Both the position numbers and the translations under genes were made by a program. DNA of 64,000 bases from a virus. Shown piece by piece: positions 1 to 62,857 of the stretch (its first letter is position 1; every line of letters begins with the position of its first letter). Below the pieces are notes generated by a model. The model was not told the DNA's origin and did no database searches. It worked only from the letters and a program-made list of their open reading frames with translations. Location of the stretch: the IMG/VR virus record IMGVR_UViG_3300046689_000961, positions 1 to 64,000 of that record; one strand, given 5' to 3'.

Positions 1-97
1 AGCGGTCGTCCTGATGGGGTCCGACGACTACACGCGCTGGCAGGCCGGCGCGTTCTTCCCGCATCGCGTCCCGGCCGGCCGTGCCCAGACCGCCTAA
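1..97 (+). CDS. C-terminal end of an unidentified gene
   Basis: Reading in the frame that starts at base 2, the window opens inside a coding sequence that stops with TAA at 95-97. Only 31 residues are visible, too few to name a family. Its end overlaps the GTG start of the polymerase gene by 17 nt, which fits the compressed operons of the rightward block. Confidence 0.45.
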   Translation, partial: AVVLMGSDDYTRWQAGAFFPHRVPAGRAQTA

Positions 98-3000
98 GTC
101 GCGTCGCGCCTTCACGCCGAAGCTCAGTAAGCCGCCGGGCTCGCATTGCCTCATCTGCCCGGCCTCGACCGCGTGTGTCGGGTACGTGCCGGCCTCGGGG
201 GATCCGGCGCTCCCGGTGCTCCTCTGGGGCGAGTCCCCCGCGGTTGACGAGCAGATTTCCGGCGTGCCGTTCACGGGTGCGGCTGGGTCGATGCTCACCC
301 GCTGCCTGCGGCTCATCGGGAAGACACGCGAGCAGGTGCGCGTCGACAACGTCGTGCGCGGCACGTTCCTGGCCCCGCTCGAGGCCCACCCCGAGGCCGT
401 GCGCGGGTGCCAGTACCGGAACGACGTGCTGGCGCAGGCCCCGCCCCAGGTGCTCGTCCCGATGGGCGCGGTGGCGCTCAGGGAAGCCCTCGGCCTCACC
501 GGGACGAAGGGCGTGCGCGTCCAGGACTTCCACGGCACGGTCACGCGCGACCCGACCAACCGCTTCTGGGTCGTCCCGACGTATCACCCGAGCCATCTGC
601 AGCGCGGCGCCACGAACCTCATGGGGACGGTCGCGTTCGATCTCCGCCGCGCGTTTGACGTGGCGAAGTCGGGCTGGGCGCCTGACCCGGGCCGGCTCGT
701 GATCGACCCGCCGGTCGAGTGGTTCCGCGCGTGGGTGGAGCTGGCGGTCGCCGCCCGTCACCAGTCACCGGACGCCTTCCCGCTGGCGGTCGACATCGAG
801 ACGCCGGATAAAGCGACCGACGAGGGCGACTTCTACGGCAAGGCCGACGAGGGCTCCTGGCAGATCAAACGCGTGAACGTCTCGGTCGACCCTGATGAAG
901 GCGTCACCGTGCCGTTCGAGGGCGCCTACATCACGCTCCTGATGCACCTACTGGCCGGCCCGGGCGTCCAGTACTACTGGTTCAAGGGGTTCGACGTGCC
1001 GCGGCTGGTGAAGGCCGGCGCGGCCATCCAGCCCGAGGAAGCCTACGACCTCATGTGGGCGTGGAAGGCGCTGCAGTCGGACCTGCCCGGCGGCCTCGGG
1101 TTCGCCGCCCCGTTCTACTCGACCTGGGGCGCCTGGAAGCACCTGGCCGAGACCGATGAGGCCCGCTACGGCGCCATCGACGGGCTGCAAACCCGCCGCG
1201 TGGGCGACGGCGTCGTCGGCGACCTCGTGAAGGAAGGCCGGTGGGACGTCTTCAAGCGGCACCAGCACGACTTCCACCGGCTGGTGCTCCAGCCGGCGAC
1301 CGACGTGGGCGTGCCGATCGACCGGGCGAGACTCCTCGCCTTCAAGGCGACACTCGACACGGAGGCCACGCGCCTGATTGACACGATTGCCGCGCTCGCC
1401 CCACCCGAGGTCACCCCGCTCACGCCGAAGCTGGGGCTGACGCGCCCGCCGGCGTCGATCCTCTACACGAAAGCGAATGCGTTCAAGCGGGACGGCACGC
1501 CGAAGAAGGAGGCGCCCGACCCGGTGAAGGCGGCGCTCTACACGCGCGCCAAGGTGGTCGAGGCGCTCGTCCTGCGCGAGGTCACGGTGTGCACGGGCTG
1601 CGGGGCGAAGGAGATTGCTAAGACGCACACATGCGCCGCCCCGCAGATCACGAAGGCCGTCGCGACCGTCCGCCGCTGGTTCTGGCAGGAACCCTTCAAC
1701 CCGGACTCGCCGCAACAGCTCATGGCGTACGTCCTCGCGAAGGGCCACACGCCGGGGAAGGCCAAAGCGACCGGGAACGACTCGGTCGATCGTGAGACCT
1801 TGTCGCGGCTGATTCGCGAGACCGAGGATCCGTTCTACCAGGCGATTCTCGACTACCGCGCGGTGGGGAAGGTCCGGTCGACCTACGTCATTGGGACCGA
1901 GAAGCGGCTCGATGCCGACGACCGCGTGCACCCGACGTTCAGCTTCAAGCCGTCGACGATGCGCCTCAGCGCGCAGAATCCCAACATCCAGAACGTCGTC
2001 CATGGCGACGACGAGGGGAAGTCGCTGGCGAGTGGCTACCGGCTGTGCGTCGTCGCGAAGCGCAGTAGCTGGATGATGGAGTTTGACTACTCCGCGATCG
2101 AGTCGGTGGTGAGTGGCTGGTGCATGCGAGACCCGCGGTTCATCCGGTACGCCAAGCTCGGCGTGCACGCGATTGTGGCGAGCCACTCGCTGGGCCGGCC
2201 CGCCGACCTCACCCAGCCCGACCGGGAGATTGCGGCGTACCTGAAGTCGCTCAAGACGTCGCACGAACCGGCGGTGCAGATCGCCTACAAGCGCAGTAAG
2301 CGCGTCGTCCACGGCACGACCTACGGGATGACCACGCACGGGATGATGCGGAACTACCCGACGACGTTCCCGACGGTGAAATCCGCCGAGGCGATTCGCG
2401 CGGTGTACTTCGCGCTCGCCCCGGGCGTGCCGCTGTTCCAAACGGCGGTGCACGCGACCGCGCACGAGACGCACCATCTGGGCGGGCCGCCGCCGTATGT
2501 GTATGACCTCACGACGCGCCGGGTCAGCGGCCATCCGTTCGGGTACCAACATTGGTTCTGGTCGGTCGTCAGCTACGAGCGGCTCACCGTGAGCCAGCGG
2601 CTCTGGCGTGAGAAGCGGGGGCTGCCGACGATCGAGATTAACGGCATCTGGTACGGCGTCGCGCTCGGGGAAGACGCGAAGCGCGGGTCGGCGTTTTACG
2701 GCCAGTCGATTGCGCGGGGCGTCCTCACCGAGGCGTGCTTTCCGCTGTTCGATCCGGCCGACGTGATGACCGACGGCGCCTCCTACATCGGCGACGCCTA
2801 CTACGGGGAGACGCCGCTGCGCGCGCCCATCCACGACTCGCTGCTGCTCGAAGTCCCGACCGGCTCGGTCGAGCGCGTGGCCGAGAAAGTCATCGGGGCC
2901 ATGAGCCGGCCGATTCAGGCGCTCCCGTGCCCGGCCGAGTGGGGGATGGGCGACTCCTTGACCATTGGCGTCGACGCGAAGATCGGCCCCGACTGGGGGA

Positions 3001-3110
3001 CGATGACGTCGCTCACGCACGACGTGAGTGTCGCCGCGGACGCGCGCGCCGTGAGCGACGAGGCCGAGGATGAGGATGACGTCCTCGACTTGGAAACGCG
3101 AACCGCCTGA
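81..3110 (+). CDS. Uracil-DNA glycosylase / 3'-5' exonuclease / family A DNA polymerase fusion
   Basis: Predicted replicative polymerase carrying its own uracil-excision domain. Residues about 20-200 resemble family 4-type uracil-DNA glycosylases: an N-terminal CxxC (Cys23, Cys26), GESPAVDE at 50-57, GVPFTGAAG just after it, and YHPSHLQR near 167. One usual Fe-S cysteine (the C of the family's 'VVKC') is G here, while Cys32 and Cys109 remain, so the cluster may be altered. Residues about 235-370 show DEDD exonuclease motifs: DIET near 239, KGFDVPRL near 302, YGAID near 363. The polymerase has motif A (FDYSAIES, about 668), motif B (KRVVHGTTYGM, about 740) and motif C (IHDSLLLE, about 918). 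Starts at GTG; the next gene overlaps by ATGA-type 1 nt. The domain calls are strong. The fused role in removing or avoiding uracil is inference. Confidence 0.92.
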   Translation: MPRPPKSRRAFTPKLSKPPGSHCLICPASTACVGYVPASGDPALPVLLWGESPAVDEQISGVPFTGAAGSMLTRCLRLIGKTREQVRVDNVVRGTFLAPLEAHPEAVRGCQYRNDVLAQAPPQVLVPMGAVALREALGLTGTKGVRVQDFHGTVTRDPTNRFWVVPTYHPSHLQRGATNLMGTVAFDLRRAFDVAKSGWAPDPGRLVIDPPVEWFRAWVELAVAARHQSPDAFPLAVDIETPDKATDEGDFYGKADEGSWQIKRVNVSVDPDEGVTVPFEGAYITLLMHLLAGPGVQYYWFKGFDVPRLVKAGAAIQPEEAYDLMWAWKALQSDLPGGLGFAAPFYSTWGAWKHLAETDEARYGAIDGLQTRRVGDGVVGDLVKEGRWDVFKRHQHDFHRLVLQPATDVGVPIDRARLLAFKATLDTEATRLIDTIAALAPPEVTPLTPKLGLTRPPASILYTKANAFKRDGTPKKEAPDPVKAALYTRAKVVEALVLREVTVCTGCGAKEIAKTHTCAAPQITKAVATVRRWFWQEPFNPDSPQQLMAYVLAKGHTPGKAKATGNDSVDRETLSRLIRETEDPFYQAILDYRAVGKVRSTYVIGTEKRLDADDRVHPTFSFKPSTMRLSAQNPNIQNVVHGDDEGKSLASGYRLCVVAKRSSWMMEFDYSAIESVVSGWCMRDPRFIRYAKLGVHAIVASHSLGRPADLTQPDREIAAYLKSLKTSHEPAVQIAYKRSKRVVHGTTYGMTTHGMMRNYPTTFPTVKSAEAIRAVYFALAPGVPLFQTAVHATAHETHHLGGPPPYVYDLTTRRVSGHPFGYQHWFWSVVSYERLTVSQRLWREKRGLPTIEINGIWYGVALGEDAKRGSAFYGQSIARGVLTEACFPLFDPADVMTDGASYIGDAYYGETPLRAPIHDSLLLEVPTGSVERVAEKVIGAMSRPIQALPCPAEWGMGDSLTIGVDAKIGPDWGTMTSLTHDVSVAADARAVSDEAEDEDDVLDLETRTA

Positions 3111-3424: not shown

Positions 3425-6269
3425 GGAGATTCTCGCGGAGGAGCCACGACGTGAGCTGCCCCGCCATGCGCCCAGCCAGCCCGGTGTCGCCCGCAGCTTT
3501 CGCCGCCAGCCCGGTCGTGAGCCACGCGCGCGCCGCCGGGTTCATCATGATCTTCGTGACCATGGGTGGGGAGAGGAGCGCCGTCCCGATCCCGATCATT
3601 TCGCTCGCGCCGGCCGCGTGGCCCGTGGCCATGCGCACGGGCATCGAGATGAGGTCGAGGAGTGCCGCGCCCTGGCCGTACCGGAGGGCCACGTTGAACT
3701 TGCTGGCGTTTTTCGGCGAGATGATCGCCAGGGACCGCTGGATCGACTTGAGCTGCTCGACGGTGGCCGGGTCGTAGATGGCCCCGAGCGTCGTGTCGGT
3801 GTACTTGCCCAGCTCGTTCTTCAGCTGCTCGGCCGTGCGGAGCGTGCCGCCATCGCTGAAGAGGAGGTCCTGCAGATGCGCCGACTGGACCTGCTGCCAG
3901 TCCGAGGCGCCGACGAGCGTGCGGAGCTTGCGCACCCCGACCGTGTCGCCTTCCTTCAGGGCATTCGCGAAGAAGGTAATCGGCGTCTTCTCCTGATGGC
4001 GGAGGAGGTCGGCCGCAAACCCCGCGTGCTCGGCCTCGGCGGCGGCGGTCGCCTTGTCGGCGGCGGCGGTGGCTTTCGCGAGCGTCTGCTGGGCGGCCGT
4101 GTGGCCGGCGGCCGCCGCGTCAGCCGCCTCGGCTTTCGCGCCCGACTCGGCAAAGGCCGGGGCCAGGTCGGTGAGCTGCTGCGTCGTCGCCCGGTCGAAA
4201 ATCGACGCCAACGTCTCGGTCCCCATCTTGTTGACCCACGCCATGATGGCCTTGGGCGTTTTCGGGACGGTCCCGCCGTCGACAAAGAGCGCGTCACGAA
4301 GCACCTGCGCCTGCACGGCTTGTTTCGCCGCTGGCGAGACGAACTTCCACAGTTGCTGCGTCTCGGCGGCCCGGCCCGGCTGCACGATCATCGCGACGAC
4401 GCGGCGCGGGTCGACCTTGCCGGTTTCGATCGCCTTCGAGAGGATGCCACGCGAGTAGGCGCCGACTTGGTCGCGCCAGTGGTTGGTCGCCGCGTCATAC
4501 GCCTGGCGCAGGGCCGACTCGGGACCGCCGGCCGCCTCGGTCATCGACGCGTCGATCGAGTTCCGGAGCATCGTGAGGAACCGCACGTTCACGTCGGCGT
4601 TGGCGGCGGCCGAGTTCTTCGCCTCGTAGATCATCTGGCCGAGGGTCGACCGGAGCTGATGCGCCTGGCTGAAGGTGATGTCGCCCGAGGCCATGTCGGC
4701 GGCCGAGATCCCGGCGTCGTGAATGGCCATGGCGGCGGCCTGGTACTTCGGGTCGTTGAGAAGCGCCTGCGTGCCGGCCGGGTTGGTGAGCGGGGCGCCC
4801 TTGCCACTGGCCCCGGCGGCTTCGGCAGAGGCGGCTTCATCGGCCGCCTCCCCCGCGCGCGCGATGACCTTGGTCGCCCCGGCGCCCTGGCCCCGCGTGA
4901 GCGTTTGCGTGATCGGGTCGTACTCGCCGAGGAGGCCGCGCGCCACGTCCATCGTCGGCCCGAGCGGGACGCGCGTGTCGCCAGCCAGCTGGTCGACCGT
5001 GCCGAAGAGTTGGTTGCCGACCTGGCGCGCCGCCTTCTCCCCCGCATTCGCGGCGGCCGTGAAGAGCTGGCCGGTGCGTTCCCGGGCGCCGGCGGGACCG
5101 GCCCGCGTCGCAAGCGTCGCCCGCTGGCCCTCGGCCGCTGAAGCGGCCGACTGGGAGGCGGTCCCCGCCTCCCGGGCACTGAGCCCGGCGCGCGTCGCCC
5201 CGGCCTGCGCCCCCTGGAGTTCCGGGGGCGCCCCGGCCTGGGCCGGCGACACGGTCGGCGGCGTCATCGCGCGCCCGGTCGCGTCCTTGATCGCCTGGCC
5301 GGCTTCCTCGTTGGACGCCTTCGGGCCGAACTGATCGACCAGGTCGTTGGCGTACTGCTCGATGACGCGTGTGTTGGCGGCGTCCTCGGCCTCGAACGTG
5401 CCGCCGAGGCCCGCCCGACCGTACGCCTCGGCGAACTGGACGGCGCGGTTCGGGTTGAGCTGCGCCGGGGTCGGCTTCACGCCCGGGAGCGGCGGCCCGC
5501 CGTAGGTATTCTGGACGTGCTCGCTGACGCGCGAGGCGAAGGGCGCGGCCCAGCTGGGCGGGACCAGGCCCCGCTTGGCTAGGAAGTTCAATCCCCCACG
5601 CATCATCCCGGTGAGCGGGATCCCCAAGGCGTCGCCGGCCGCGAACTGGCCGAAGTCGCTCGCCATCGACGCGGGCGTCGGGTTCTCGCCGCCGATGGTC
5701 GCGTGCTGGGCGGCTTGCGAGGCGGCGCCGGCGGTGGCCGCGCCCACCCCGGTCGCCATGGCGTGCGTGCCCATGCGCACCATCTGCTGCAGCGGCGCGC
5801 GGAGCCACGGGGCGAGTTCCGTCGCCGCGGCGGTGATCCCCAGCTTGGCCGGGAGGAACTCGCCGCCGGCGACCATTGCGGCGCCGTTGATCGCCATGCC
5901 CAGCCAGTCTTTCTCCTTGTCGGAGGCGGCCGTCATCAGCCGGTCGGCCAGGCCCTTCACCGCGGCGTCGGCGGGGTTAATCTGCTGGATCTCCTCGGGC
6001 GAGAGCTTGCGCGTGTTCGGCGGCGGCGCCCCGGTCGATGGGCGGCTGGCCGGGTCACGAATGGCGGCAATCTCGTCGGCGCCCAGCGGACGCGCCTGTC
6101 CGGTGGGCGGCGTCTGAGCGGGCGGCCCGGGGTTCTTCAGCGAGAGCGAGACTTCGGCCGGCCCGGTCGGTCCACTCGGCTGCGTCACCTTGGGCGGCGC
6201 CTGGGGCGGCGGCGTCCCGGGAGCCTGCGGGAGGGTCGGGGGCGGCGTGGCAGCGAACGGCTCAGCCAT
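3294..6269 (-). CDS. Very large internal virion (ejection-type) protein
   Basis: 991 residues, last gene of the late block. The first ~80 residues are Pro/Gln-rich and disordered-looking; hydrophobic helices lie near 135-165 and near the C-terminus (about 860-900), with long Ala-rich helical stretches between. Two segments, about 648-702 and 789-845, are copies of each other (LFVDGGT / LFSDGGT, then SIFDRATTQQL / AIYDPATVEQL). Position, size and helical content match T7 gp16-like internal core proteins that are ejected with the DNA. No lytic transglycosylase or peptidase motif was seen. A TAGGAT box lies 9 nt upstream of the ATG with no Shine-Dalgarno sequence between, though its TAG is also the upstream stop. 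Confidence 0.6.
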   Translation of the reverse strand: MAEPFAATPPPTLPQAPGTPPPQAPPKVTQPSGPTGPAEVSLSLKNPGPPAQTPPTGQARPLGADEIAAIRDPASRPSTGAPPPNTRKLSPEEIQQINPADAAVKGLADRLMTAASDKEKDWLGMAINGAAMVAGGEFLPAKLGITAAATELAPWLRAPLQQMVRMGTHAMATGVGAATAGAASQAAQHATIGGENPTPASMASDFGQFAAGDALGIPLTGMMRGGLNFLAKRGLVPPSWAAPFASRVSEHVQNTYGGPPLPGVKPTPAQLNPNRAVQFAEAYGRAGLGGTFEAEDAANTRVIEQYANDLVDQFGPKASNEEAGQAIKDATGRAMTPPTVSPAQAGAPPELQGAQAGATRAGLSAREAGTASQSAASAAEGQRATLATRAGPAGARERTGQLFTAAANAGEKAARQVGNQLFGTVDQLAGDTRVPLGPTMDVARGLLGEYDPITQTLTRGQGAGATKVIARAGEAADEAASAEAAGASGKGAPLTNPAGTQALLNDPKYQAAAMAIHDAGISAADMASGDITFSQAHQLRSTLGQMIYEAKNSAAANADVNVRFLTMLRNSIDASMTEAAGGPESALRQAYDAATNHWRDQVGAYSRGILSKAIETGKVDPRRVVAMIVQPGRAAETQQLWKFVSPAAKQAVQAQVLRDALFVDGGTVPKTPKAIMAWVNKMGTETLASIFDRATTQQLTDLAPAFAESGAKAEAADAAAAGHTAAQQTLAKATAAADKATAAAEAEHAGFAADLLRHQEKTPITFFANALKEGDTVGVRKLRTLVGASDWQQVQSAHLQDLLFSDGGTLRTAEQLKNELGKYTDTTLGAIYDPATVEQLKSIQRSLAIISPKNASKFNVALRYGQGAALLDLISMPVRMATGHAAGASEMIGIGTALLSPPMVTKIMMNPAARAWLTTGLAAKAAGDTGLAGRMAGQLTSWLLRENLLTAPGTAPPQVAGPGANQPGPGGRAGGPPPLPAGLATGGRGGG

Positions 6270-55382: not shown

Positions 55383-56588
55383 ATGGCCCGCGTCCCGTTC
55401 TTGATCGTTGGCGACGCGCCCGAGGGCCACTCTGGCCTCGGGCGCATCCTGAGAGACCTCCGTCGGCGGCTGAGTGACGCCGCCGAGGCCGACGCCTTGG
55501 GCGTCGACGTGAAGACCTGCGCCTGGGTGGCCGACCCCAAGTACCGCGGCACGCCGCCCTGTGGGCTGGTCACGGGCCTGGCCGACTGGCGGTTCATGAA
55601 TATCGAGACGTGGGGCCGGGAAGCGGTGGAGTCGGCATGGCAGTACTTCTACGGCGACCGCCCGGGGATCGTCTTCACGATCTGGGACCCGGCCCGGTGC
55701 CATGCGTTTTTGGAGCTGCCGGCGCACCTGGCCAAGTGGGGCTACTTCGCGGTGGATGGGCATAACCGGCGCAGCACGTTTGGCGGGCCAGCGGCCGAGG
55801 CGGTGAAGGGGTACCAGGGCGTGCTCGCTTACGGGCTGTACGGTGCACAGACGCTCGCGCGTGTCTTCGACGCGGGTTCACGCGTGGTCGAGTACTTGCC
55901 GCACGGCATCGACACGTCGGTCTTCAAGCCGACGATGACGGCCGCCGCGCGGGCGGCCGCCGAGCGCATCATCGGGGCGCGGCTGACGGACCAGACGCGC
56001 GTCATCGGCTGTGTCGCGACCAATCAAGCGAGGAAGGACCTCGGGCTGGTCTTCGAGACGATGGCGAGCCTCATCATGCGCGGACAGGACGTCCACCTCT
56101 GGTTGCATATCGACGAGCAGGTGACCGAGGCGTGGTCGGTCCCGCAGCTCTATGAAGACTACCCGGCACTGCGCGGCCGGCTGAGCGTGAGCCAGTCGGT
56201 CACGGATGAAGTCCTAGCCGCCTGCTACGCCAGCTGTAGCGTGACGATCGCCCCCGGACGCGGCGAGGGGTTCGGGTACCCGATCCTCGAGAGCCAGTGG
56301 TGCGGGACGCCGGTCGTCGGGTTCGACTACGCCGGCGGGGCCGAGTACCTGCCAGACGCTGGGCGGGCCCGCACGCACATGTACCGGCCCGAGGGGCCGT
56401 ACAACCTGCTGCGCCCGATCGGGGACGCCGGACACTGGGCGAGCCTCATCGAGCGGCTTCTCACGACAGACAACGCGTGGACGATGCCCCCGGCCGCCCA
56501 CCGCACTCGCTGGTCGACCCTCTGGCCCGAGTGGCGCGAGTGGGTGGCGGCCGGCCTCACCGATTGGAGAGAGACCCATGGCCACTAA
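55383..56588 (+). CDS. GT-B glycosyltransferase (GT1/GT4 type)
   Basis: 401 residues from ATG at 55383. The Rossmann-like start (RVPFLIVGDAPEGHSGLGRI) and the donor-binding block GRGEGFGYPILESQWCGTPV (about 290-310) with VGFDYAGGAEYL are classic GT4 features, including the E-x7-E pattern. LPHGIDTSVFKP also fits. Transfers a sugar from a nucleotide donor to an unknown acceptor. Sits among replication genes, which hints at DNA or early-protein modification, though envelope modification is possible. Confidence 0.85.
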   Translation: MARVPFLIVGDAPEGHSGLGRILRDLRRRLSDAAEADALGVDVKTCAWVADPKYRGTPPCGLVTGLADWRFMNIETWGREAVESAWQYFYGDRPGIVFTIWDPARCHAFLELPAHLAKWGYFAVDGHNRRSTFGGPAAEAVKGYQGVLAYGLYGAQTLARVFDAGSRVVEYLPHGIDTSVFKPTMTAAARAAAERIIGARLTDQTRVIGCVATNQARKDLGLVFETMASLIMRGQDVHLWLHIDEQVTEAWSVPQLYEDYPALRGRLSVSQSVTDEVLAACYASCSVTIAPGRGEGFGYPILESQWCGTPVVGFDYAGGAEYLPDAGRARTHMYRPEGPYNLLRPIGDAGHWASLIERLLTTDNAWTMPPAAHRTRWSTLWPEWREWVAAGLTDWRETHGH

Positions 56589-58531: not shown

Positions 58532-58854
58532 CACTCGGCGATTGGCTGCTCGTGGCGATTCTGCTCGTCCCAGTCGTGTTCGCGGCGCTTAGGCTCGACG
58601 CGCGGAGTCGCCCCGGCGGCGGGAAAACCGACGTGGTCGAACTGTGCGTTGACCTGGGCTGGGATAGCGAGGCGGTCTACACGCTCGCCCCGCCGATCGA
58701 GTGCCCGGCGTGCGCGACGCGGCTGCTCAAGGTCGACGTCGTGCGCTACCCGAACGAGGATTTGACGGTGAGCTGCCCGCATTGTGACGAGCGGCTGCCG
58801 GTTCAGCGCGTCGAGATTCATGGCGGGTTGACGTTTCTGGAGGTCGTCTCGTGA
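58528..58854 (+). CDS. Membrane-anchored zinc-ribbon protein
   Basis: 108 residues from ATG at 58528 (4-nt overlap). One hydrophobic helix (LGDWLLVAILLVPVVFAALR) then CPACATRLL and CPHCDERLP about 30 residues apart, a zinc ribbon. Could hold a sugar-modification or replication complex at the membrane. Unknown function. Confidence 0.6.
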   Translation: MTLGDWLLVAILLVPVVFAALRLDARSRPGGGKTDVVELCVDLGWDSEAVYTLAPPIECPACATRLLKVDVVRYPNEDLTVSCPHCDERLPVQRVEIHGGLTFLEVVS

Positions 58855-59951
58855 GCGGGCTGGCGAGGAAGCCGTACCGGATCCCGGTGAGCCGGCCGGC
58901 GTACTTCGGGAACGAGATTGACTACGTCATGGGCGCCGTCGCGCGTCGCGAACTCTCCATGGGCGACTACGTGGAGTCCTTCGAGTGGCGCTGCGCCCAG
59001 TACCTGCAGGTGAAGCACGCCATCGCGGTCAGTAGCGGCACGGCCGGCCTACACCTGGCGGCACTCGTCGCCGGGGGCGGCTGGGATTGCCTGCCGGCGC
59101 CGACGATTCTCACGACGCCGCTGACCTACGTCGCCAGCGCGAATGCGATCTGGTACTGCGGCGCATCCAAGCACTTCGTCGACGTCGCCCCGGGAACGTG
59201 GCTCGCGACCGTCGCCGACGGCACGAACATGGGCGACGGCTTCCTCCCGGTCGACCTCTACGGGCTGCCGGGCCTCTGGCGCAGCGACGCCGCCGACTAC
59301 GCCATCGTGTATGACGCCTGCGAAGCCTTCGGCGCGACGATCGACGGCCGGCCGCTGACGATGCGCGGCGGGATCCACGTCTTCAGCTTCTACGGGAACA
59401 AGATCGTGACGACCGGTGAGGGCGGCCTCGTGACGACCGACGACGACGACGACGCGCGGTTGATTCGCCAGCTCCGCGGCCAAGGCCAGTCGCTCACCCA
59501 GCGGTACGTGCACCCGGTCGTTGGGTATAACTACCGCATGACGAACCTGCAGGCGGCGCTGGGCCTCGCGCAGGTCGAGACGATCGAGACGCACCTCGAC
59601 CGCCGGCGCACGCGTGAGCACCAGTACTTCGACCGGCTGGGGGACACGCTCGCGACGCAGGTCGCCCCGGTCGGGGTGGAAGCCGCCCCGTGGGTCTTCG
59701 CCGGCCTCGTCCCGCCGCACGTCTCACGCGACGGGCTGATGGCCGCGCTCGACGCGCGCGGGATCGAGAGTCGGCCGGTCTTCCCGTGCCTGCACCGCGA
59801 GGGCGTCCATGCGACGCGCCAGCGGCTGCCGGTGGCCGAGGACATCAGCGCCCGTGGGATCGTGCTGCCGTTGTACGCCGAGATGACCGAGGGCGAGTGT
59901 GACGAAGTGTGCGACGTCGTCCTCGGCTGGCTGGAGGAACAATCCCGATGA
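58851..59951 (+). CDS. DegT/DnrJ/EryC1/StrS-type sugar aminotransferase
   Basis: 366 residues from GTG (4-nt overlap). Family features: SSGTAGLHLAAL (about 61-72, phosphate binding), VYDACEAFGATI (about 150-161, cofactor ring Asp), and the PLP lysine in SFYGNKIVTTGEGG (Lys184), followed by LRGQGQ and a GYNYRMTNLQAALGLAQ block. These enzymes put an amino group on a nucleotide-linked keto-sugar. The next gene is an acyltransferase, as in many N-acyl amino-sugar pathways. No matching dehydratase is in the window, so the keto-sugar may come from the host or from genes outside. Confidence 0.88.
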   Translation: MSGLARKPYRIPVSRPAYFGNEIDYVMGAVARRELSMGDYVESFEWRCAQYLQVKHAIAVSSGTAGLHLAALVAGGGWDCLPAPTILTTPLTYVASANAIWYCGASKHFVDVAPGTWLATVADGTNMGDGFLPVDLYGLPGLWRSDAADYAIVYDACEAFGATIDGRPLTMRGGIHVFSFYGNKIVTTGEGGLVTTDDDDDARLIRQLRGQGQSLTQRYVHPVVGYNYRMTNLQAALGLAQVETIETHLDRRRTREHQYFDRLGDTLATQVAPVGVEAAPWVFAGLVPPHVSRDGLMAALDARGIESRPVFPCLHREGVHATRQRLPVAEDISARGIVLPLYAEMTEGECDEVCDVVLGWLEEQSR

Positions 59952-60790
59952 CCCCCATGAAAGAAGGCCGTGTCGAGCGGCTCGACGACTCGACCGATGC
60001 CGTCTATCTCTACGGGACCGAGCACGGCCGGGCGCCGGGCTGGTACCTGCGCGAACGCCGTGCGGGAGGCATCGGGCGGTTTGTCGCCGGGCCGTTTGAG
60101 ACGGTCGCGACGGCCGCGACGGGATACGCCGCGTTTCAGCACGCGATGACGCTGCGCGCCTTCCCGGAGCTGCCGGCGCTCACGATTCACGCCGCCGACA
60201 GTCAGCCGGTCGCCGCCCCCGTCGACTGGCGCGCGCTCGCCGCGGCGTACATGGCCATCCGGCACGTCGAGGCGACCCAGGACCACGACTACTATTTCGC
60301 CGGGACCGCCGCCGGGCCCGCGCACGTCGATACCGGCGGCGCGCAGCTGTTCGTCGTGAACCCGGCGGCGCTCGTCGTGGCGAAGGCCACGCCCCGGATC
60401 GACGACTTCGTGAAGCTCGAGGCCGGCCTGGGCATGGTGCTCGGCCCGCGCGTCCACGTCGCCAGCTTCTGCCACCTCGGGATCGGCGGCGGCATCACCA
60501 TTCTCGAGGAAGGCGCGTCGACCGGCTCAGGCGCGAAGATCGTGTCGGGCTCGGCCGTCCCCTCTGAGGTCGGCTGCTCGGCCGTCCAGCCCGGCGTCGT
60601 GAACGTGCGGAGCTTCGCCTGGATGAAGCCGTTCTCGACGCTGTACGCCGGCGCGATCCTGCTTCCCGGGTGCGTGCTGGGCGCGCGGAGCGTGCTCGCG
60701 GCCGGGAGTGTGCTGAAGGCCGGGACCGTGACGGGTGAGGACGAACTCTGGGCCGGCGTGCCGGCCGTGCTGAAGCGGCGGGGGCGATGA
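59948..60790 (+). CDS. Left-handed beta-helix acyltransferase
   Basis: 280 residues from ATG at 59948 (4-nt overlap). An N-terminal ~100-residue domain is followed by hexapeptide-repeat coils (GGITILEEGASTGSGAKIVS; AGAILLPGCVLGARSVLAAG; SVLKAGTVTGEDELWAGVPA). The WAGVPAVLKRR end is typical of sugar O- or N-acetyltransferases. Probably acylates the amino sugar made by the upstream aminotransferase. Confidence 0.8.
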   Translation: MTPMKEGRVERLDDSTDAVYLYGTEHGRAPGWYLRERRAGGIGRFVAGPFETVATAATGYAAFQHAMTLRAFPELPALTIHAADSQPVAAPVDWRALAAAYMAIRHVEATQDHDYYFAGTAAGPAHVDTGGAQLFVVNPAALVVAKATPRIDDFVKLEAGLGMVLGPRVHVASFCHLGIGGGITILEEGASTGSGAKIVSGSAVPSEVGCSAVQPGVVNVRSFAWMKPFSTLYAGAILLPGCVLGARSVLAAGSVLKAGTVTGEDELWAGVPAVLKRRGR

Positions 60791-62101: not shown

Positions 62102-62857
62102 ATGACGCTCACCCTCTGTACGATGGTCCGCGACGCCGCCAGCCGCGGTACGCTCGCCCGCTTCCACCGGCAGGTGGGGACCCTTGAACGCCGCCTGCAC
62201 GCCCCGCTCACCGTCGTCATTGCCGAGGGCGACTCGCGGGACCACACGCGCCTCGCCCTCGTGCAGGAAGCTGAGCGTGCGAAAGCCTGGCATCGACGCA
62301 CGCTCGTCATGGACGTCTCGCATGGCGGCCCGTTCTGGGGGTCGACCGAGGAACCGGCGCGACTCGCCGGCCTCTCGACGATTTTCAACCGCGTGCTCGA
62401 CGTCGCGACCGAGACGAAGGCGGACGTCGTCGTGTGGGTCGAGAGTGACCTGCACTGGACGGCCGACACGATCTTGCGGCTCGCGTCGCACGTCGACCAG
62501 AAGCTCGTCGCCCTCGTCGCGCCGATGACGCACGCGGGCGTCGCGTACTACGATACGTGGGGCTGTCGGCTGCTTGACGGCCGCCGGATTGATAGCGTGC
62601 CGCCGCACCTGCCGGCCGACTATCTGGCCGCGCACGGGGTCGGCGCCCTCGTCGAGATGGCGAGCGTCGGCTCGGTCGTCGCGATGAGTCGCCCGGTCGC
62701 CCGTGACGTGCGCATCAGCGGCGGCGGCGCGATTGTGGAATGGTGCGCGGTGGCGCGGGGGATCGGCCACCGCGTGTGGCTCGACACCGGGGCGCGCGTC
62801 GAGCACCCGCACGACGGATTCATGGGCCTCCCCGAGGCCGAAGGAGCGACGGCATGA
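62102..62857 (+). CDS. GT-A fold glycosyltransferase
   Basis: 251 residues from ATG at 62102. LTLCTMVRDAAS at the start, then PLTVVIAEGDSRDHTRLALV and the metal-binding-type VVVWVESDLHWTADTILRL (about 110) fit a GT-A fold like GT2/GT62-type enzymes. A mostly conserved IVEWCAVARGIG follows near the C-terminus. Acts on an unknown acceptor. Part of the sugar module around the aminotransferase. Confidence 0.7.
   Translation: MTLTLCTMVRDAASRGTLARFHRQVGTLERRLHAPLTVVIAEGDSRDHTRLALVQEAERAKAWHRRTLVMDVSHGGPFWGSTEEPARLAGLSTIFNRVLDVATETKADVVVWVESDLHWTADTILRLASHVDQKLVALVAPMTHAGVAYYDTWGCRLLDGRRIDSVPPHLPADYLAAHGVGALVEMASVGSVVAMSRPVARDVRISGGGAIVEWCAVARGIGHRVWLDTGARVEHPHDGFMGLPEAEGATA

Follow-up and report, generated by a model that had tools for sequence, protein, structure and literature searches.

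Phage DNA polymerases that carry a uracil-DNA glycosylase (UDG) domain in the same chain have been annotated for years, with no clear function found in the literature searched. Aravind and Koonin, writing on UDG families in 2000, reportedly discussed the SPO1 case. A UDG domain was noted in the polymerases of Shbh1 and SPO1 in 2016, with the suggestion that it aids processivity (PMC5135824), and the three-domain UDG-exonuclease-polymerase arrangement was described in 2020 for PaBG gp205 and its relatives (PMC7412058). To these can be added the polymerase of Thermus phage phiLo (phiLo_158), to which PDB entry 9QHS (2026) is linked by its molecule name and its description; the corresponding gene is present in the phiLo record, and its UDG site is intact. 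Our literature search found no publication on 9QHS, and no mention of UDG was found in the available portions of PMC10684548, PMC9023294, PMC11348598, and PMC9324360. A preliminary description of the locus studied here had implied that such a fusion was new; given the SPO1/Shbh1, PaBG, and phiLo precedents, it is not. The same architecture occurs in SPO1, Serbin, PMBT14, and Mel-JY34, and 84 open frames with both UDG and PolA domains were identified in IMG/VR viral loci, a count that includes overlapping copies of the same contig. A later scan gave 25 loci of the wider clade of the present phage, several overlapping the earlier ones.

The window analyzed here, i.e., the whole 64,000-nucleotide stretch of DNA, covers positions 1-64000 of a virus record that is 64,574 bases long. 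Its first 126 bases (1-126) recur as a direct terminal repeat at about 64448-64574 of the record, beyond the window (4449-4574 of locus L097), so that the record probably represents a whole, closed genome, about 64.4 kb long. Portal and terminase homologues are encoded in the window, as are a Dda-like helicase and an ATPase weakly matching Sak4, the last two of which fit replication encoded by the phage. Glycosyltransferase, DegT-type aminotransferase, hexapeptide-repeat, and CAP59-like genes (55497-56588, 58851-60790, and 62102-62857) form a possible sugar-modification module. Nucleotide-level relatives of the window were not found among named phages, nor were host copies of the fusion among the genome contigs searched.

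At positions 81-3110 (+), a single uninterrupted frame (GTG start, 1009 codons, zero internal stops) codes for one chain in which a family 4-like UDG is followed by a DEDDy 3'-5' exonuclease and then by a family A polymerase, as in the fusions of SPO1, PaBG, and phiLo. The preliminary description had read UDG motifs, DEDD exonuclease motifs, and family A motifs in this frame, an assignment on which Pfam (UDG and DNA_pol_A), NCBIfam, PDB sequence searches, and AlphaFold/Foldseek agree. There is no missed frameshift or stop between the domains, since the entire fused frame recurs on a second contig (L001), in a homologue of 97% identity, and, as far as the contig end, in L002, and since, of 57 bases that differ within the UDG part, 49 fall at third codon positions. 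The layout is also identical in L003. A whole-protein AF2 model, built with 38 homologues as input, reached a pLDDT of 86 and a pTM of 0.85 and matched Klenow-type polymerases by fold (Foldseek). The polymerase gene begins before a small frame upstream of it has ended; in L002, the frame immediately before the polymerase is cytosine-C5 DNA methyltransferase-like (4654-5811; recognized by eye from FFAGIGG and PCQPFS), and its place is taken in the window by a small unrelated frame.

The UDG domain spans about residues 16-197 (126-671, +). Profile searches of the N-terminal part place residues 39-178 in the UDG superfamily (Pfam UDG PF03167, E=1.8e-16, 61 bits vs. a cut-off of 24.3), with further NCBIfam matches to archaeal type-4 UDG (E=1.6e-18) and UDG_fam4 (E=5e-16), both under the curated cut-offs. 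The nearest solved sequences are the family 4 UDGs of Thermotoga and Thermus (1l9g/1vk2/1ui0; E about 1e-13). Modelled alone, the domain reached a pLDDT of 88, and Foldseek returned 1l9g as best match (E=6.8e-15), with UdgX and 1ui1 also matched; against 9QHS, the score was E=3.5e-7 and UDG residues align. Alpha/beta UDG fold and profile match both point to the UDG superfamily, family 4. UdgX membership was rejected, as the KRRIH loop with its covalent His has no counterpart in the window protein (the UdgX chain compared is the H109K mutant, with loop ...GGKRRI-KTPS...); a UdgX-type covalent trap is accordingly unlikely.

The roles of the Glu, Phe, Asn, and His residues of family 4 UDGs are known from TthUDG and UdgX. 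Their counterparts in the uracil pocket, E51, F64, N90, and H169, are all retained in the window. As scored in an alignment of 38 homologues, (i) motif 1 (GESPAVDE, G50-E57; 228-251, +) keeps the catalytic-type E51, with the conserved Gly of GE-x-x-G changed to A54; (ii) the uracil-pocket Asn, N90 (348-350, +; TthUDG N80), is kept in 37 of 38; and (iii) H169-P170 of motif 2 (HPSHLQR; 585-590, +) is invariant in 38/38. Across 69 distinct fused UDGs, the set of E, F or L, N, and H is kept in 58 and all four Fe-S cysteines in 64, a pattern that a site in use would be expected to show.

The domain is also under strong purifying selection. Between the window and L001, dN/dS is 0.052 in the UDG part (from about 48 synonymous changes and 9 non-synonymous ones), similar to the 0.045 of the polymerase part, which argues that the UDG domain is kept for a function and rules out a decaying one. 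Values against relatives of 45-51% identity were saturated and left out.

It is at the Fe-S site that the window protein departs from its family. The first two ligands, C23-x2-C26 (147-158, +), align with C13/C16 of TthUDG, and the fourth, C110 (408-410, +), is invariant in 38/38; the third is missing, deleted together with its CxPP motif between R93 and G94 (357-362, +). The preliminary description had one Fe-S cysteine replaced by Gly; the loss of the ligand stands, while the change is a deletion of the whole CxPP, leaving the loop short by about five residues relative to its counterparts in related proteins. With the third of four cysteine ligands gone, the [4Fe-4S] cluster has probably been lost or destabilized in this lineage. 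Within a clade of about 30, CxPP loss is confined to the window and two near-identical contigs (L001 and L002; about 97% protein identity over shared length), the three having the motif-1 Gly change in common. A sequencing error was rejected as cause, the loop DNA being identical on three contigs; since the loop codons show no differences, support for the reading frame there comes from the flanks and not from synonymous changes within the loop. That the window and L001 agree at 22 successive codons around the loop is itself unremarkable, as such a run is expected by shuffling (P=0.40) and longer runs exist elsewhere.

A possible origin of the deletion lies in the inteins of related loci. In two intein-bearing fused UDGs (L057 529-4716; L059 3617-7801), the intein lies within the UDG domain, inserted immediately N-terminal to the third Fe-S cysteine (HN|CHPPGDW), making this Cys the +1 residue of the splice; the L057 intein matches Pfam Intein_splicing at E=3.1e-8, under that model's curated cut-off. 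The CxPP deletion in the window coincides with this insertion point, which suggests that intein loss or escape, possibly imprecise, may have removed the Fe-S ligand. Elsewhere in the family, intein/homing-endonuclease domains in the exonuclease/polymerase part and polymerase genes split into two frames were observed (L044, L017, L060, L064; L048, L052, L054, L058).

The remainder of the chain consists of a proofreading exonuclease with all of its DEDDy residues and a family A polymerase. Aligned to Klenow by profile, the DEDDy 3'-5' exonuclease domain (693-1307, +) holds D238, E240, D305, Y363, and D367, with F301 at the exo II Asn position, a change common to the window and L001. The family A polymerase domain (1683-3005, +), supported by Pfam (DNA_pol_A PF00476 in the C-terminal half, E=5.7e-32, above the curated cut-off), homologue alignment, profile alignment to Klenow, and fold search, holds D669 of motif A, K740 of motif B, and H918-D919 of motif C; Y736 and H744 occupy the positions of Klenow R754 and F762. 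Key residues of both domains are invariant or nearly so among the 38 homologues. A possible zinc-binding insert in the thumb region, CxxC-x8-HxC (C504, C507, H516, C518; 1590-1634, +), is kept in L003, L053, L061, L062, and L065-L067.

With the fusion, its predicted fold, its residues, and purifying selection directly supported, the explanation that we favor, at a probability of roughly 55%, is that this protein is the polymerase with which the phage replicates its DNA, and that it belongs to the SPO1/PaBG/phiLo type, with a UDG domain that handles uracil by excision or grip. The pocket formed by E51, F64, N90, and H169 would flip and recognize uracil, most likely in DNA being copied or just made; the uracil would then be either excised or gripped, in a domain whose Fe-S cluster has probably been lost or destabilized and whose fold would be maintained by other contacts. 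The earlier proposal that the polymerase inspects or excises uracil at the fork is thus plausible from the retained pocket residues, the strong selection, and the distribution of Asn losses among relatives. Weighing against this explanation, loss of CxPP, of the motif-1 Gly (A54), and of the exo II Asn (F301) is unique to the window lineage in its near clade, and on these changes the UDG may no longer be catalytic.

The distribution of Asn losses mostly follows the neighboring genes. The uracil Asn is lost in 5/6 fused UDGs encoded beside thymidylate-synthase/dCMP-deaminase genes (SPO1, Serbin, PMBT14, L018, L019, and L007) vs. 4/66 of those without such neighbors (Fisher p=5e-5, uncorrected for kinship, with the flanks examined often only 4 kb). 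Most simply, the pocket would be disarmed in phages that make U-like bases and retained, for dealing with uracil, in those whose DNA is ordinary. The window, with its Asn kept and such genes lacking nearby, belongs with the Asn-keeping group, which favors real uracil handling; no thymidylate-synthase, dCMP-deaminase, or hydroxymethylase homologues were found within its 64 kb. A strict rule equating Asn loss with nearby thymidylate genes fails, since L007 keeps the Asn despite its neighbors, and L069 and the first copies in L075/L088/L089 have lost it with no such neighbors in the available flanks. Among L148, L149, L018, L019, L009, and L007, Asn loss tracks these neighbors with the exception of L007. 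Separately, some phages encode two adjacent UDG-PolA fusions (L075, 2810-5050 and 5215-7503; L078, 2861-5131 and 5299-7605; and L089), in which the UDG pocket is degenerate in the first copy (N to T) and intact in the second; the second copy in L089 is cut off inside the UDG part at the locus end.

A tentative alternative, clearly less probable than uracil handling, is that the UDG is no longer an enzyme and serves as a DNA-binding arm raising processivity, as vaccinia D4 UDG does for its polymerase. Such a role is mentioned as a suggestion in the Shbh1 paper (PMC5135824), and it would suit both the retention of the domain without the uracil Asn in SPO1, Serbin, and PMBT14 and the absence of CxPP and the motif-1 Gly from the window lineage; more broadly, a structural role for fused UDGs is possible by analogy with SPO1, in which the domain has lost Cys and Asn yet is kept. 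However, E51, F64, N90, and H169 are kept in the window and most of the family, exceeding what a pure grip would need. The preliminary description had raised a changed chemistry or a uracil sensor as possibilities for this domain. Preservation of recognition residues alongside an altered Fe-S loop and motif 1, in a domain adjoining the exonuclease in the chain, could instead point to a non-cleaving sensor that pauses the polymerase at template uracil, as does the uracil pocket of archaeal family B enzymes; we consider this unlikely, as the UdgX covalent-trap loop KRRIH is missing. Slightly more doubtful still is the combined proposal that the fused UDG is an Fe-S-free uracil reader, stopping or redirecting the polymerase without base cutting, whose Cys was lost at the L057/L059 intein point, possibly through imprecise intein loss; if true, it would correspond, among family A enzymes, to the uracil brake of archaeal polymerases. 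That the domain reads modified pyrimidines instead of uracil, for which the modified template deposited with 9QHS and the hydroxymethyluracil DNA and dUMP hydroxymethylase gene of SPO1 could be cited, is very improbable, given that the tested thymidylate-synthase, dCMP-deaminase, and hydroxymethylase homologues are absent from the window genome and that the window keeps the Asn mostly lost in phages with such genes.

The window protein can be compared with several known systems. Pseudomonas phage PaBG gp205 and its relatives, likened to the window protein from their published description, have the same three domains and differ in belonging to jumbo phages. Bacillus phage SPO1 gp31 and Shbh1 have the UDG-exonuclease-PolA order, and the SPO1 N-terminus matches TthUDG at E=2.7e-27; unlike the window protein, that of SPO1 retains neither the uracil Asn nor any of the four Cys. 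The 'DNA polymerase I' proteins of Serratia phage Serbin and Pseudomonas phage PMBT14 likewise have a UDG fused to PolA, whereas their uracil Asn is changed to Pro and their genes adjoin those for thymidylate synthase and dCMP/cytidine deaminase. In phiLo, the UDG also lies N-terminal to a family A polymerase; identity to the window is low, however, all four Cys and GEAPG are kept, and the structure was deposited with a modified template. The nearest relatives, an IMG/VR clade with the same domain order (L003, L053, L061, L062, L065-L067, and L098-L121; 45-51% full-length identity for the aligned members), differ from the window in keeping CxPP and the motif-1 Gly, and in nearly all cases the exo II Asn. 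Fused UDGs thus form a natural series, from a full site, through one without Fe-S ligands, to one in which the uracil Asn is missing (in most cases with thymidylate-synthase/dCMP-deaminase genes alongside), which lets the purpose of polymerase-linked UDG domains be tested. Within this series, the window protein is a useful point, with a full pocket and a damaged cluster site; what sets its fusion apart from those already described is this damaged Fe-S site in a UDG domain still under strong selection.
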